Below the pieces are notes generated by a model, which worked only from the letters and a program-made list of their open reading frames with translations, searched no databases and was not told the DNA's origin. The translations under genes were made by a program, and so were the position numbers. From assembly GCF_900117415.1 (NCBI RefSeq), contig NZ_FPEI01000006.1, positions 1,736,001 through 1,800,000 of the forward strand: 64,000 nt of DNA. The letters are read 5' to 3'. Positions 16,029-20,402 of this stretch are shown piece after piece (the first letter of the stretch is position 1; every line of letters starts with the position of its first letter). Source of the DNA: Hyphomicrobium sp. CS1BSMeth3 (GTDB taxonomy: Bacteria; Pseudomonadota; Alphaproteobacteria; Rhizobiales; Hyphomicrobiaceae).

Positions 16029-17342
16029 CTATCGAAGCATCTTGTAGGGGAGCCAGGTGATGAGCTCCGGGAAGATCATCATCAGGACCAGCGCCAGGAA
16101 TTGCAGGGCGATAAAGGGTATGACCGCCTTGTAGATGTCGAGCATCGACACCCCCTTCGGCGCCACACTGCGCATGTAGAAGAGGTTGAAGCCGAAGGGC
16201 GGCGTGAGGAAGGCCATCTCCATGTTCACGACGAACAGGACGCCGAACCACACGGGATCGAAGCCCAACTGCACGATGATCGGGAAGAAGAGCGGCACTG
16301 TCAGCAGCATGATGCCGATCGGATCCAGGAAGCAGCCCATGATGATCCAGATGATCTGCATTCCAAGGATGGTGCCCCACTTCCCGCCGGGGACATAGGA
16401 GAGTGCATCCCTGACGAGCTGGTCCGCGCCGACGGCGGCATAGAGTGCCGTGAACATGGACGCCGCGAACACGATCCACATGACCATGGAGGTCAGGCGC
16501 AAGGTGATGAGCGAGGATTCCTTGAGCGCCGTCCACGTCAGCTTGCCATAGGCAAGCGCACACAGGATCGACCCCGCGGCACCAATGCCGGCCGCTTCGC
16601 TCGGTGTCGCGACACCGCCGACGATGGAGCCGAGCACCAGCGCCACCAGCATGATGGGCAGGATCACCGCCTTGAGCGCGGCAATCTTCTCCGGCCAGGT
16701 CGCACGCTCCGCGACAGGCAGAGCAGGCCCCATCTCCGGCCAGATTGCGCAGGCAACGAGGATGTAGACGATGAAGAGCACGACGATCACGAGACCGGCC
16801 GTGATGCCGCCGAGGAAGAGCATGCCGACCGAGACGTTGGCATAGAGCCCAAGGACGATCATCAGAACGCTTGGCGGGATCAGCACGCCAAGCGCACCGC
16901 CGCCGGCGATACATCCGATACTGAGCCCCTTGCTGTACCTCGCGGCAAGCATGGACGGCAACGCGACGAGCCCCATGGTCACGGTCGCCGCACCACTCAC
17001 ACCGACGAGCGCGGCGAAGATCGTGCAGACGAGGATGGTGCCGACGGCGAGGCCACCGTTGATGCCGCCGAACCACTTCTTCATCATGTCGTAGAGATCG
17101 GTTGCGAGACCGGATCTCTCCAGCATGCTGCCCATGAAGATGAACATCGGGATCGCAAGCAGCACGAAGCTCGTTGCCGTGCTGAAGGTCTTGATGCCGA
17201 GCGCGTAGAGCGCCTCGGGTCCCCAGAGGAAGTAGGTCCCGATGATGGCCGCGCTGCCCAGCGAGAAGACAAGCGGTAGGCCGGCCGCCATGAGCAGCAG
17301 AAACGATCCGAAGAGGAGGATCGTGATGACTTCAATGCTCAT
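16029..17342 (-). CDS. dctM: TRAP transporter large permease (DctM family)
   Basis: This 437-residue protein is the large membrane subunit of a tripartite ATP-independent periplasmic transporter, the Na+/H+-coupled channel that takes substrate from the binding protein. It has about 12 hydrophobic segments and typical DctM stretches (IPMFIFMGSMLERSG near residue 55; GVATPSEAAGIGAAGS in the second half). The start at 17342 has AGGAGG upstream and overlaps the dctQ stop as ATGA, indicating translational coupling. It is the last gene of dctP-dctQ-dctM. Confidence 0.95.
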   Translation of the reverse strand: MSIEVITILLFGSFLLLMAAGLPLVFSLGSAAIIGTYFLWGPEALYALGIKTFSTATSFVLLAIPMFIFMGSMLERSGLATDLYDMMKKWFGGINGGLAVGTILVCTIFAALVGVSGAATVTMGLVALPSMLAARYSKGLSIGCIAGGGALGVLIPPSVLMIVLGLYANVSVGMLFLGGITAGLVIVVLFIVYILVACAIWPEMGPALPVAERATWPEKIAALKAVILPIMLVALVLGSIVGGVATPSEAAGIGAAGSILCALAYGKLTWTALKESSLITLRLTSMVMWIVFAASMFTALYAAVGADQLVRDALSYVPGGKWGTILGMQIIWIIMGCFLDPIGIMLLTVPLFFPIIVQLGFDPVWFGVLFVVNMEMAFLTPPFGFNLFYMRSVAPKGVSMLDIYKAVIPFIALQFLALVLMMIFPELITWLPYKMLR

Positions 17343-17890
17343 TGACGGACCTCCTGCGCATCGAGGACCACATCCTCCGGCAATAGTGGCGAGTTGGTGA
17401 GAGCGAGGTGCAGATCGCGTGCGATGCGCGCGATGGCTTGAAGAAGGAGCAGTCCTGCACCGATCGGCAGCGACACCATCACGGGAAAGAGCGGCGGGCT
17501 CCAATCCGACGAAGCACGCTGCCCCGTCTCGAGCGCCTCCTTGGCCATGATGAATGTCTGCTCGAAAAGAACCCAGCAGAACAGGAGCATGAAGAACGCG
17601 GTGCCGACATCGATGATGGCCCTACCGCGCATGGAGAACCGCGAGTAAATGATGTCCATGGAGACGTGGTCGCGATGGAGCAGCGTGTAGCCACCTCCCA
17701 GCATGACGTAGGCCGCGAAGATGAAACTGATCATCTCGTTGCCCCATGTCGTGGGCGCCTTCATCACGTAGCGCAGGAAGACCTCGTAGCAGACCAGAGC
17801 GATCAGCCCGAGCAGGGAGATGGCAGCGACGTAGCCGACCAAGCCGTTCAGCCTGTCGATCAAGCGCACGACTGCGCGTACCAAGTTCAT
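17339..17890 (-). CDS. dctQ: TRAP transporter small permease (DctQ family)
   Basis: This 183-residue small TRAP subunit has four membrane segments and the DctQ signature region (VLRYVMKAPTTWGNE-type sequence, read as FLRYVMKAPTTWGNEMISF). It forms the membrane complex with DctM. The start at 17890 was picked from family alignment, with GAGG upstream; the open frame continues upstream but is unlike the family. It overlaps dctM by four bases and lies 86 bases after dctP, with a hairpin in between. Confidence 0.93.
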   Translation of the reverse strand: MNLVRAVVRLIDRLNGLVGYVAAISLLGLIALVCYEVFLRYVMKAPTTWGNEMISFIFAAYVMLGGGYTLLHRDHVSMDIIYSRFSMRGRAIIDVGTAFFMLLFCWVLFEQTFIMAKEALETGQRASSDWSPPLFPVMVSLPIGAGLLLLQAIARIARDLHLALTNSPLLPEDVVLDAQEVRQ

Positions 17891-17976: not shown

Positions 17977-19077
17977 CTAGATATTCGAGGGACGCTTGCG
18001 GAACATGTCGCGCGTTTCGAAGATGATTTTCAGCACCTTCTGCGTCGGCTCGTCCTTGGTCTGCATCTTCTCGAGGGCCTCGTAGGCGGCCTTCTCGTAG
18101 TACTGGACGTCCGCCGGCGGCAGCGAGTTGAACTTCACACCGGCGTCCTTCATGATCTGGACGCACTTGGCGCTCTCGGCCGTGGAGGTCGTCGCACGCT
18201 CGACGGCGTAGATGCGCGTGACGATGTTCATGACCTCCTGGAGGTCCTTCGGCAGGCGGTTGTACGCCCGCTGGTTCATGAACATGTCTTCCATGTCGAA
18301 CGCGATCGTGGACGGGCCGAGATAGAACTTCGCCGGCTCGTGGATCTTGTACTGGAAGAAGCCTGCCGGCGAACCCCAGTTCGACGCGTCGATGACGCCG
18401 GTCGAGAGCGCGGTGTACTGCTCCTCGCCCGGAATCGTCACGATGCTCGCACCCTTGGTCTTGAAGACCTCGGCGCCGAGACCGAAGCTGCGGATCTTGA
18501 TGCCCTTGAAGTCATCGAGCGTCTTGAGCTCCTGGCGGGACATCGTCGCGCCCCACTCGTCCGAGTACACGGGGCCGAGGAAGTGCGTGCCGTGCTTCGC
18601 GAAGGCCTCGCGGACGACGTCCAGAAGACCCGTCTCGTTCCAGAGATAGTCGTAATGGTCGAGCGTCTTGAAGGCGCCGGGAATGCCCCACGTCCAGAGC
18701 GTGAAGGGGATCTTGCCGCGCCAGTAAGGCTGCGCGCCGTAGCCGATCTCGACCACGCCCTTGCCGACGGCATCGAGCATTTCGAAGGTGGGCACGAGGG
18801 CGCCGGGCGGGAATGCCTGAATCTGAATTCGGCCGTTCGACAATTCGCTGACGCGCTTGATGTAGCGCGGAATGAGCGTCTCCCACTCGACCGTGCCCGG
18901 GCCGAGGAAGGACTGCATGCGGAAGCGGAATTCGGCCTTCTGCGCGTGAGCTTTGGTCGGTAGGCTGGCGATGGCTGCCAGTGAGGCACCTGCCAGGCCC
19001 GCCCTCACCACATCACGGCGGCGTATCTTGGCTCCGCCGACAGATCCTACGACGCGATCGTCAATGTCTTTTGACAC
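17977..19077 (-). CDS. dctP: TRAP transporter substrate-binding protein (DctP family), Tat-exported
   Basis: This 366-residue periplasmic binding protein of the DctP family captures the substrate for the TRAP system. The N-terminus carries a twin-arginine signal (IRRRDVVRAG near residues 18-27, then an Ala-rich segment ending KAHAQ), so it is exported folded. The conserved substrate-carboxylate arginine region is seen in FKGIKIRSFGLGAE. The start is GTG with GGGAGAG upstream. It heads the operon dctP-dctQ-dctM. The substrate, probably a carboxylate, cannot be deduced. A 248-base leader upstream contains a hairpin at 19128-19144. Confidence 0.92.
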   Translation of the reverse strand: MSKDIDDRVVGSVGGAKIRRRDVVRAGLAGASLAAIASLPTKAHAQKAEFRFRMQSFLGPGTVEWETLIPRYIKRVSELSNGRIQIQAFPPGALVPTFEMLDAVGKGVVEIGYGAQPYWRGKIPFTLWTWGIPGAFKTLDHYDYLWNETGLLDVVREAFAKHGTHFLGPVYSDEWGATMSRQELKTLDDFKGIKIRSFGLGAEVFKTKGASIVTIPGEEQYTALSTGVIDASNWGSPAGFFQYKIHEPAKFYLGPSTIAFDMEDMFMNQRAYNRLPKDLQEVMNIVTRIYAVERATTSTAESAKCVQIMKDAGVKFNSLPPADVQYYEKAAYEALEKMQTKDEPTQKVLKIIFETRDMFRKRPSNI

Positions 19078-19325: not shown

Positions 19326-20402
19326 TCAGCGGCCTTTGTCCTTGGCGAGCGTGCGCGCGGAGTAGCGCGCATTGCCGAGCCCGGTGCCGATGGTCAGGAT
19401 GCCCCAATGCTTGCGCTTCTGCGCCCGCGGCAGGTGGCTCAGCCCCTGCACCACGGCGTCGTTGTGCATCACGATCATGGTCTCGTGATCGCCGATCTTC
19501 GGAATGCTCTCCGTGACCGCCGTCGGGAAGTTGAAGCGGCTGCTTTCCCAATTGCCGGGCAGGTTCTGCGCGCCGCGCGCAATGCTGCCGTCAGGCTCGA
19601 TCACGCCGGGGCATCCGATGCCCACGACGGGCGCGAGCGAAAGCTTCTCCTTCCGCGCGCTCTTGATGAGCGATTGCAGCAGGTCCGTCAGGTGCTCGAT
19701 GGTCTCCGTTCGCGAGACCTTCTCGTCGGCATGGCGCCACAGGTGGGATTCAGCAACGCGCGCCGCGGAGAGATCCTTGGCCTTTCCGAGGCGCAGCTCG
19801 ACAATGCCGGCGCGGATGTTTGTCCCGCCGATGTCGACAGCGAGGATGCCGTCATGACCTTCGAGCATCCACGCAGGCAGCAGGTGCGCCGCGCCGATCA
19901 ATCCGGCTTCATCCGGATCATGCTCGATGAGCTCGAGGTCCACATCCAGATCGTCGGCCTTGAGAAGCGTACCGGCGCGTCCGATTGCCAGCTCCCCGAT
20001 CCGGCTCGCGCGGAACCCGCCGCCGAAGACGATACACTCCGTCCCGGCCCAGGCCTTGTTCTTGAGAAATCGGCGGAGCACTTTGGCGAGTGCCTGCGCG
20101 TAGTCCTCGATGGCGCTCAGGATGATGCCGGCAGCTTCGACCGATCCGCTCGCGAGCAACTGATCGAGCTGCTTCTTGCTGATGTCGGCCGTCTTGGTAT
20201 CGCCGAGCGGGTCCTCGCCCGAGACTGATTTATGGTGCTTGCGCCAATCGTCGAGCGCCTCGCGAAAGGCATCCCGTCGCGCCTTGTCGCCGATGAAGCC
20301 ATCGGCATCCTCGAGCTCCAGGTTGTAGCTGTCGACCGTGACGCTCGGGAGCGTGGCGGCGCCGTGGGTCGGAAGCGTCAGGCGTTCGGCGTTCTCGGCC
20401 AT
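19326..20402 (-). CDS. ROK-family sugar kinase-like protein, circularly permuted
   Basis: This 358-residue protein has the motifs of ROK-family (glucokinase-like) proteins but in rotated order. Residues 1-180 match the usual C-terminal half: helix EAAGIILSAIEDYAQALAK, CIVFGGGFRAS (GGG at 127-129) and EAGLIGAAHLL (170-172). Residues 185-345 match the usual N-terminal half: phosphate-1 motif LAVDIGGTNIRAG (DIGGT at 190-194), GIGCPG (261-266), NLPG (280-283), the catalytic-base region MHNDAVVQG (Asp315) and phosphate-2 ILTIGTGLGNA (GTG at 339-341). The zinc-binding CxCGxxGC motif that should follow is absent. Likely a cytoplasmic ATP-dependent kinase or a former one. Transcribed alone, upstream of the TRAP operon on the same strand. 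Confidence 0.8.
   Translation of the reverse strand: MAENAERLTLPTHGAATLPSVTVDSYNLELEDADGFIGDKARRDAFREALDDWRKHHKSVSGEDPLGDTKTADISKKQLDQLLASGSVEAAGIILSAIEDYAQALAKVLRRFLKNKAWAGTECIVFGGGFRASRIGELAIGRAGTLLKADDLDVDLELIEHDPDEAGLIGAAHLLPAWMLEGHDGILAVDIGGTNIRAGIVELRLGKAKDLSAARVAESHLWRHADEKVSRTETIEHLTDLLQSLIKSARKEKLSLAPVVGIGCPGVIEPDGSIARGAQNLPGNWESSRFNFPTAVTESIPKIGDHETMIVMHNDAVVQGLSHLPRAQKRKHWGILTIGTGLGNARYSARTLAKDKGR

Follow-up and report, generated by a model that had tools for sequence, protein, structure and literature searches.

A circularly permuted ROK-family protein of Alphaproteobacteria, probably a sugar kinase tied to trehalose metabolism

The Locus and Its Gene

The gene studied here, which encodes a circularly permuted ROK-family protein (hereafter ROKp), lies on the minus strand of the window, i.e., the whole stretch of 64,000 nucleotides that was analysed, with a TRAP transporter cassette downstream of it and trpS in divergent orientation (Table 1). 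Its open reading frame runs from 20402 to 19326, with an ATG start and zero internal stops, which bears out the original prediction of a single protein in one frame and adds the strand, missing from that prediction. The gene for a DctP-type substrate-binding protein follows 248 bp downstream on the same strand.

Every motif that had been listed for the 358-residue product was found where it was expected: GGG (127–129) and PDEAGLIGAA (163–172, with GAA at 170–172) in the first half, then DIGGT (190–194), GIGCPG (261–266), HNDA (313–316) and GTGLGNA (339–345) in the second half. The names applied to these motifs (DxGGT, GTG, GGG, ExGH and the zinc motif CxCGxxGC) are those in use for ROK proteins. 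The zinc motif is absent from the ROKp of the window, as predicted, and even a C-x-C is found in the first 70 residues of none of its 127 relatives (0/127); likewise, no ExGH motif is present in the ROKp of the window.

Table 1. Features of the ROKp locus in the window.
Feature	Positions	Strand	Details and basis
ROKp (circularly permuted ROK-family protein)	19326..20402	minus	358 aa; Pfam ROK match and relatives
ROKp first half, residues 1–182, counterpart of the C-terminal region in ordinary ROK proteins	19857..20402	minus	hhalign, Pfam, weak Foldseek matches
ROKp second half, residues 183–358, counterpart of the N-terminal region in ordinary ROK proteins	19329..19856	minus	Pfam, hhalign
Site where the old termini are joined, about residues 173–187	19842..19886	minus	Predicted secondary structure
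New N-terminal segment, residues 12–38, HGA..LPSV.VD.YN.E....GF.G	20289..20369	minus	Column counts over 128 rows
TRAP transporter substrate-binding protein (DctP type)	17977..19077	minus	TRAP_S1, 89.9 bits, cut-off 50 (NCBIfam)
TRAP transporter large permease (DctM)	16029..17345	minus	TIGR00786, 332 bits, cut-off 268

Evidence for Swapped ROK Halves

The Pfam ROK model matches the ROKp of the window over residues 187–344, at model positions 2–136 out of 294 (27.8 bits, gathering cut-off 22.9). When the first halves of 21 members were scanned alone with Pfam, ROK was matched in nine of them (the next commonest family in two), and all nine matches start at model position 179, 180, 183, 192 or 196 and end at 291/292, i.e., at the far end of the model; in seven members, the match begins around residue 30–37, corresponding to model positions 179–183. 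The best of these matches has an E-value of 0.0015, below the gathering score; the 12 remaining first halves show no ROK match, none of the 21 reaches the Pfam cut-off, and the first half of the window ROKp, taken alone, has no Pfam match.

Using hhalign, a profile of the same 21 first halves was compared to one built from 17 classical ROK proteins of the same bacterial family. Residues 73–176 of the first-half profile align to classical positions 209–305 with a score of 34.3, versus a mean of 14.6 (SD 2.6, maximum 22.4) for 200 column shuffles, while the second-half profile aligns to classical positions 6–150. The first halves thus match the C-terminal end of ROK and the second half its N-terminal end, as expected under the predicted permutation. 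For whole profiles, the rearranged order aligned to the classical proteins in one piece over 290 columns (59.9) and the native order over 143 columns (45.3), the score of 59.9 being dependent on realignment. In the construction without realignment, there was no gain from the rearranged order (46.9 vs. 47.1), and shuffling the first half left the score as high in 59 of 200 versions, even though none of the 200 covered 290 columns (maximum 268). Because of this equality, the total score of the whole chain is not used as evidence here, in favour of the positions and of the first half alone.

It had also been proposed to compare the Pfam score of the rearranged chain with that of its native order. 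A gain was observed only for one relative (L027), in which two stretches at 33.4 bits became a single stretch over positions 4–292 at 36.0 bits; there was none for the ROKp of the window (27.8 to 27.9 bits) or for two other relatives (L014, 38.8 to 38.9 bits; L028, 38.0 to 38.0 bits). The second half of the window ROKp scores 26.4 bits alone and 23.3 bits with a shuffled first half.

Predicted Structure

AlphaFold2, run on the 21-row alignment, models ROKp as one confident fold (pLDDT 90.2, pTM 0.88). Values of pLDDT below 50 are restricted to residues 1–8 and 353–358, which are the new chain ends, and at the junction of the old termini, helices 163–174 and 177–180 lead into strand 185–191. 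When the whole model was searched against the PDB with Foldseek, the best match was the N-acetylmannosamine kinase 2yhy, over 173 columns (part of the chain), and tandem eukaryotic hexokinases (5hfu, 1dgk) stood at ranks 2 and 4 with 436 and 431 columns. These hexokinases have two full unpermuted copies per chain (897–898 residues), and ROKp would seem to align across the end of one copy and the start of the next, as a permutant should. Lower matches are members of the wider superfamily, including exopolyphosphatases and Hsp70. Folded alone, the first half reaches a pLDDT of 79.2; its PDB matches are weak (best E-value of 0.025, with 2aa4 and 3vov as the best hits), yet ROK proteins occupy ranks 1–4, 6 and 7, the other four of the top ten being chains of one designed protein.

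An alternative is a fusion in which an unrelated domain, the first half, precedes a truncated ROK half, the GGG and GAA motifs being coincidental. The first half of the window ROKp, devoid of any Pfam match, would be in line with this, as would a comparison of the HMM profile of the first halves with PDB sequences, which returned two chance matches and no ROK chain. However, a fusion of two unrelated domains was rejected on the basis of the shuffle test and of the nine (out of 21) first halves matching ROK, each at the C-terminal end of the model; moreover, the best Foldseek matches of the isolated first half are ROK proteins. We therefore regard such a fusion as very improbable, and ROKp as almost certainly a real circular permutant of ROK.

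Conservation and Break Point

Our alignment comprises 128 rows, i.e., the ROKp of the window and 127 relatives that are full-length and free of stops, and it includes six or more rows that duplicate others; four of the 131 loci, in which a stop lies inside the match, were left out. The permuted order is seen in all 128 rows, most of them from Alphaproteobacteria: a regular expression retrieved it in 122, while the other six have an extra earlier “HND” (five rows) or GD in place of GG (one row). Homologues with the same order do therefore exist, and the suggested distinct subfamily turns out to be widespread. Such uniformity implies that the order is due neither to chance nor to an assembly artefact, and the probability of an assembly or gene-calling error is practically nil, the same order recurring in many genomes and on complete replicons (e.g., pSymB of S. 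meliloti). The ROKp family is old. In the only pair for which codon positions were compared (the window ROKp and L003), first, second and third positions differ 16, 12 and 70 times in the first half and 14, 6 and 68 times in the second half; with most differences at the third position, both halves are under constraint at the protein level.

Invariant over the 128 rows are D190, CPG, the Q-N and P-G-W of QNLPGNW, HND, GTGLGN and GGG. In the phosphate-1 motif DxGGT, the D and the first G are found in 128 rows, the second G in 127, and T or S in 128; the phosphate-2 motif GTG, the HND carrying the catalytic Asp (N-D motif) and the adenosine motif GGG are all present in 128/128. The GAA-type end is looser, with G170 in 128 rows, A171 in 90 and A172 in 51. 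In the new N-terminal segment, the counts (out of 128) are 127 for H13, 126 for G14, 128 for L18, 123 for P19, 116 for D24, 122 for N27, 116 for E29, 125 for F36, 128 for G38 and 127 for D39.

According to Pfam, second halves stop around ROK model positions 136–151 and first halves start around 179 or later, and the intervening model segment holds the ExGH and zinc motifs in ordinary ROK proteins. The break falls inside this ExGH/zinc segment, from which both motifs are gone, with two new chain ends there instead and the new N-terminal segment (residues 12–38) taking its place. Judging by the register with the following strand, the place of ExGH would read x-L-P-S in ROKp. As ExGH is also without a counterpart, the substrate site has been remodelled beyond the zinc site alone, and the new conserved segment may form the remodelled rim of the sugar pocket. 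The permutant shows that the ROK fold tolerates a cut and a new join through the segment that usually binds zinc and sugar.

Compared with the ROK kinases of PF00480 (glucokinase, N-acetylmannosamine kinase, allose kinase), ROKp shares the ATP and catalytic motifs but differs by the swapped motif order, the lack of ExGH and of the Cys zinc motif, and the new N-terminal segment. Since the order is reversed in 128/128 rows, ROKp is a permuted relative of ROK and not an ordinary member: a structural variant that departs from the family in order, ExGH and zinc, and agrees with it in its ATP and catalytic motifs and in its Pfam score. Glucokinases of the E. coli Glk type (PF02685) belong to the same superfamily but are unpermuted and form another Pfam family, against which ROKp scores 11.8 bits (cut-off 22.1).

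Distribution and Annotation

A scan of the genome collection yielded at least 595 stretches, at least 581 of which encode a relative (two of the scan patterns lie in one gene, so that stretches are not equivalent to genes), and the best 80 loci were kept. These belong mostly to Bradyrhizobium, Hyphomicrobium, Rhodoplanes, Phyllobacterium and other Alphaproteobacteria, one being titled Gammaproteobacteria, and the two nearest relatives among them are on contigs of metagenome-assembled genomes titled Hyphomicrobiaceae. Of the 385 genomes in the class sample, 16 have a full-length match, which contains stop codons in three of them, and three further genomes have partial matches only. The order sample gave 61 matching genomes out of 397, 57 of them at full length; two genomes of this sample (G575 and G598, family f19) have two full-length copies each. 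The phylum sample contains 58 matching genomes out of 398, of which 22 are full-length, the other 36 being partial and mostly due to ordinary ROK proteins; five of the 22 lie outside the class, and three of those five have a stop codon in the match. Finally, 207 of 72,556 plasmid records match, mostly from Rhizobium and Sinorhizobium and including pSymB of S. meliloti 1021. Many of the bacteria that carry ROKp live in soil or root nodules.

Relatives share about 48% to 91% identity with the ROKp of the window. Among the listed records, those with an annotation read “ROK family protein”, or “hypothetical protein” in two cases, and half of the window ROKp is missed by the Pfam model. Well-supported natural circular permutants of enzymes with a deep active-site cleft are uncommon; this one is retained throughout a large group of bacteria, and its annotated records mostly read plain “ROK family protein”. 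Among the open-access papers listed, none describes a permuted ROK kinase in its title or abstract opening. One study, the main text of which does not contain “ROK”, mentions that kinase folds within a group are possibly related by circular permutation (PMC1079889), and “permut” does not occur in another (PMC12696579).

Trehalose Genes in the Neighbourhood of ROKp

The neighbourhoods of ROKp vary widely, trehalose genes being one recurrent theme. We examined 120 loci, made of sets of 80 and 40 (at least three of the 40 repeat genomes of the 80, none of those being trehalose-linked), and found a GH15, OtsA or OtsB gene in the flanks of 15 of them (10/80 and 5/40), with OtsB in all 15. The queries were taken from ROKp neighbourhoods, and the same queries gave nothing in the controls, i.e., 0/16 regions around classical ROK genes and 0/20 offset regions about 200 kb from ROKp; the other 105 loci have no trehalose gene in the searched flanks, some of which are short. 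Two arrangements recur: the one-strand order GH15 (trehalase-like), OtsA, PfkB kinase, OtsB and ROKp (L038, L040, L050, L053, L192, L224), and ROKp head to head with OtsB (L085, L097, L210, L216, L225). The identity of representatives was checked with Pfam (TREH_N/GH15, OtsA as Glyco_transf_20 and PfkB in L050; OtsB as Trehalose_PPase in L043). On a FastTree tree of 125 rows (three dropped as copies), 18 of which bear the trehalose label, this label needs eight changes (gains or losses), at least five of them forced by starred branches, whereas 500 label shuffles average 17.2 changes and none is as low as eight.

Nine plasmid regions were picked out of the 207 matching records. In three of them (R. 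leguminosarum WSM1325, R. lentis and Shinella), otsB is directly divergent from ROKp, at 106–124 bp. On the R. leguminosarum and R. lentis plasmids (L301, L302), ROKp sits between otsB and the repABC replication genes. In both S. meliloti regions (L299:7654-10056 and L298), the direct divergent neighbour of ROKp is the M42 peptidase belonging to the NAGGN osmoprotectant system, annotated as such in one region and recognised by homology in the other, which makes this peptidase a second compatible-solute neighbour of ROKp besides the trehalose genes. The region of Sinorhizobium sp. B11 has a TRAP transporter at ROKp, those of Phyllobacterium and Bradyrhizobium have no otsB, M42 peptidase or TRAP transporter there, and the unannotated S. 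fredii region shows no match to the proteins tested. A TRAP transporter was rejected as a general partner of ROKp: homologues of the window DctM occur in only 3/120 loci (L033, L034, L203), the first two of which belong to the genus of the window. A different TRAP cassette adjoins ROKp in L305, and a weak DctP match was seen in 1/20 offset regions.

At the scale of the class sample, OtsA (PF00982) is encoded in 99 of 385 genomes, namely 15 of the 16 with a full-length ROKp (G390 being the exception) versus 84 of the 369 others (Fisher p = 8e-9, ignoring phylogeny and genome size). GH15 was found in 14/16 ROKp genomes, in 25/30 chosen genomes with OtsA but without ROKp, and in 0/18 with neither, which indicates that GH15 goes with OtsA whether ROKp is present or absent. 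The trehalose linkage, computed from these loci and genome samples, is new here, and for many lineages at least, a tie to trehalose or osmoprotection is likely. The genes that thereby gain a concrete, testable connection to trehalose or osmoprotectant metabolism probably number in the hundreds and include the one on pSymB of the laboratory symbiont S. meliloti.

The genome of the window itself has a run of OtsB, GH15, OtsA and a glucokinase (PF02685), with a divergent PfkB, about 218 kb from ROKp (L264:9480-15866, G000:C2). There, it is the PF02685 glucokinase that adjoins OtsA, in the type of cluster where ROKp stands in other genomes. PF02685 is also beside OtsA in several genomes devoid of ROKp (e.g., G134, G079, G098 and G165), so that a kinase seems to be a frequent part of the OtsA cluster. 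When the PF02685 protein of the window genome was used as a query, no match was obtained in the 120 ROKp loci. At the genome level, a PF02685 glucokinase is present in 29/48 ROKp genomes, versus 26/32 of the others chosen. A plain replacement of this glucokinase by ROKp was thus rejected, both being present in those 29 genomes, and ROKp is not simply “the” glucokinase.

Proposed Function and Alternatives

Our preferred reading, to which we would give a probability of about 0.6, is that ROKp is a circularly permuted ROK-type sugar kinase of trehalose metabolism, most simply acting on glucose. That it is an active kinase is quite probable in view of its intact ATP and catalytic motifs, hence the label, while glucose as its main substrate is a tentative proposal. 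According to the computed evidence, the chain begins in the segment that follows the GTG phosphate motif of an ordinary ROK protein and runs through the old C-terminal part (GGG, GAA); the old termini being joined, it then passes into what used to be the N-terminal part (DxGGT, CPG, HND) and ends past GTG, the whole presumably closing into a single ordinary ROK fold. In this fold, the phosphate loop D190-GGT, GTG (339–341) and GGG (127–129) would still form the ATP site, and D315 of HND would still serve as the base, allowing a sugar hydroxyl to attack the gamma phosphate. As the new chain ends lie at the usual ExGH/zinc site, the pocket may be completed by the new conserved segment, i.e., by H13..L18-P19..D24..N27-x-E29..G38-D39.

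Genome context suggests that the sugar belongs to trehalose metabolism. Glucose might be phosphorylated to feed OtsA, or the glucose freed by the GH15 trehalase-like enzyme might be recaptured, glucose 6-phosphate being the probable product of ROKp. Several points speak against this reading: the ExGH residues expected for sugar binding are without a clear counterpart, the ROKp of the window is not beside trehalose genes but is followed by the TRAP cassette, 29 of the 48 ROKp genomes have a PF02685 glucokinase as well, and 105 of the 120 loci show no trehalose gene in the flanks searched.

ROKp could also be a permuted zinc-less ROK protein of the polyphosphate glucokinase branch, transferring phosphate from polyphosphate or ATP to glucose and lacking the zinc motif already before the permutation, an origin that we consider rather unlikely. 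Its second half does find its best NCBIfam match in the polyphosphate-glucose phosphotransferase (NF045942), the best-scoring known subfamily, though at 24.9 bits for a cut-off of 250, and its best PDB sequence match is the polyphosphate/ATP-glucomannokinase 1woq (E-value of 0.0045), itself unpermuted; besides, the same taxonomic order has unpermuted zinc-less ROK proteins (L145, L146, L265, L288). Yet, when 40 unpermuted ROK proteins were pooled, 33 of them with the zinc motif, those with and without it obtained similar scores against the second half (the two best at 26.3 and 25.4 bits), and against the first half the zinc-bearing ones had a slight advantage. Moreover, the E-x-x-H/Q-like motif of zinc-less ROK proteins is missing from ROKp too.

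Alternatively, the permuted fold might act as a non-catalytic sensor of a sugar or sugar phosphate, comparable to ROK repressors but without their DNA-binding domain. The loss of ExGH and of the zinc ligands, the presence of another glucokinase in 29 of the 48 ROKp genomes and the wide variation of gene neighbourhoods would all fit such a role. We nevertheless find it unlikely, given that GTG, GGG and the Asp of HND are invariant in 128/128 rows and DxGG in 127/128, which a pure sensor would not need; in addition, Pfam matches no DNA-binding domain.

A third possibility, which appears quite improbable, is that ROKp uses ATP to phosphorylate trehalose itself (or another disaccharide of the pathway), in which case it would make trehalose 6-phosphate and oppose OtsB. 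With the chain ends moved to where ExGH and the zinc loop would be, the pocket could open to a larger sugar, and OtsB is encoded head to head with ROKp in several Rhizobiaceae. If this held true, kinase and phosphatase together would set the level of trehalose 6-phosphate without OtsA.

Zinc-Less and Tandem ROK Proteins

Four of the unpermuted ROK proteins in the collection (L265, L288, L145 and L146) are short, zinc-less and endowed with ELAH- or EFGQ-like motifs; against the polyphosphate glucokinase model, L265 and L288 score 104.5 and 50.6 bits, below the cut-off of 250. Another unpermuted zinc-less ROK protein (L031:751-1905, minus strand) is 384 aa long with a TTG start as called. It was considered as a possible sister of ROKp because the second half of ROKp aligns well to it (hhalign score of 65), but this was rejected, the first-half alignment not being significant and, of the 58 genomes searched, only its own giving a match. 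Directly after L031, two fragments (L296 and L297, G089 contig 99) represent a second ROK copy, 40% and 46% identical to it, which makes a tandem ROK pair, the kind of arrangement that would give rise to permutants.
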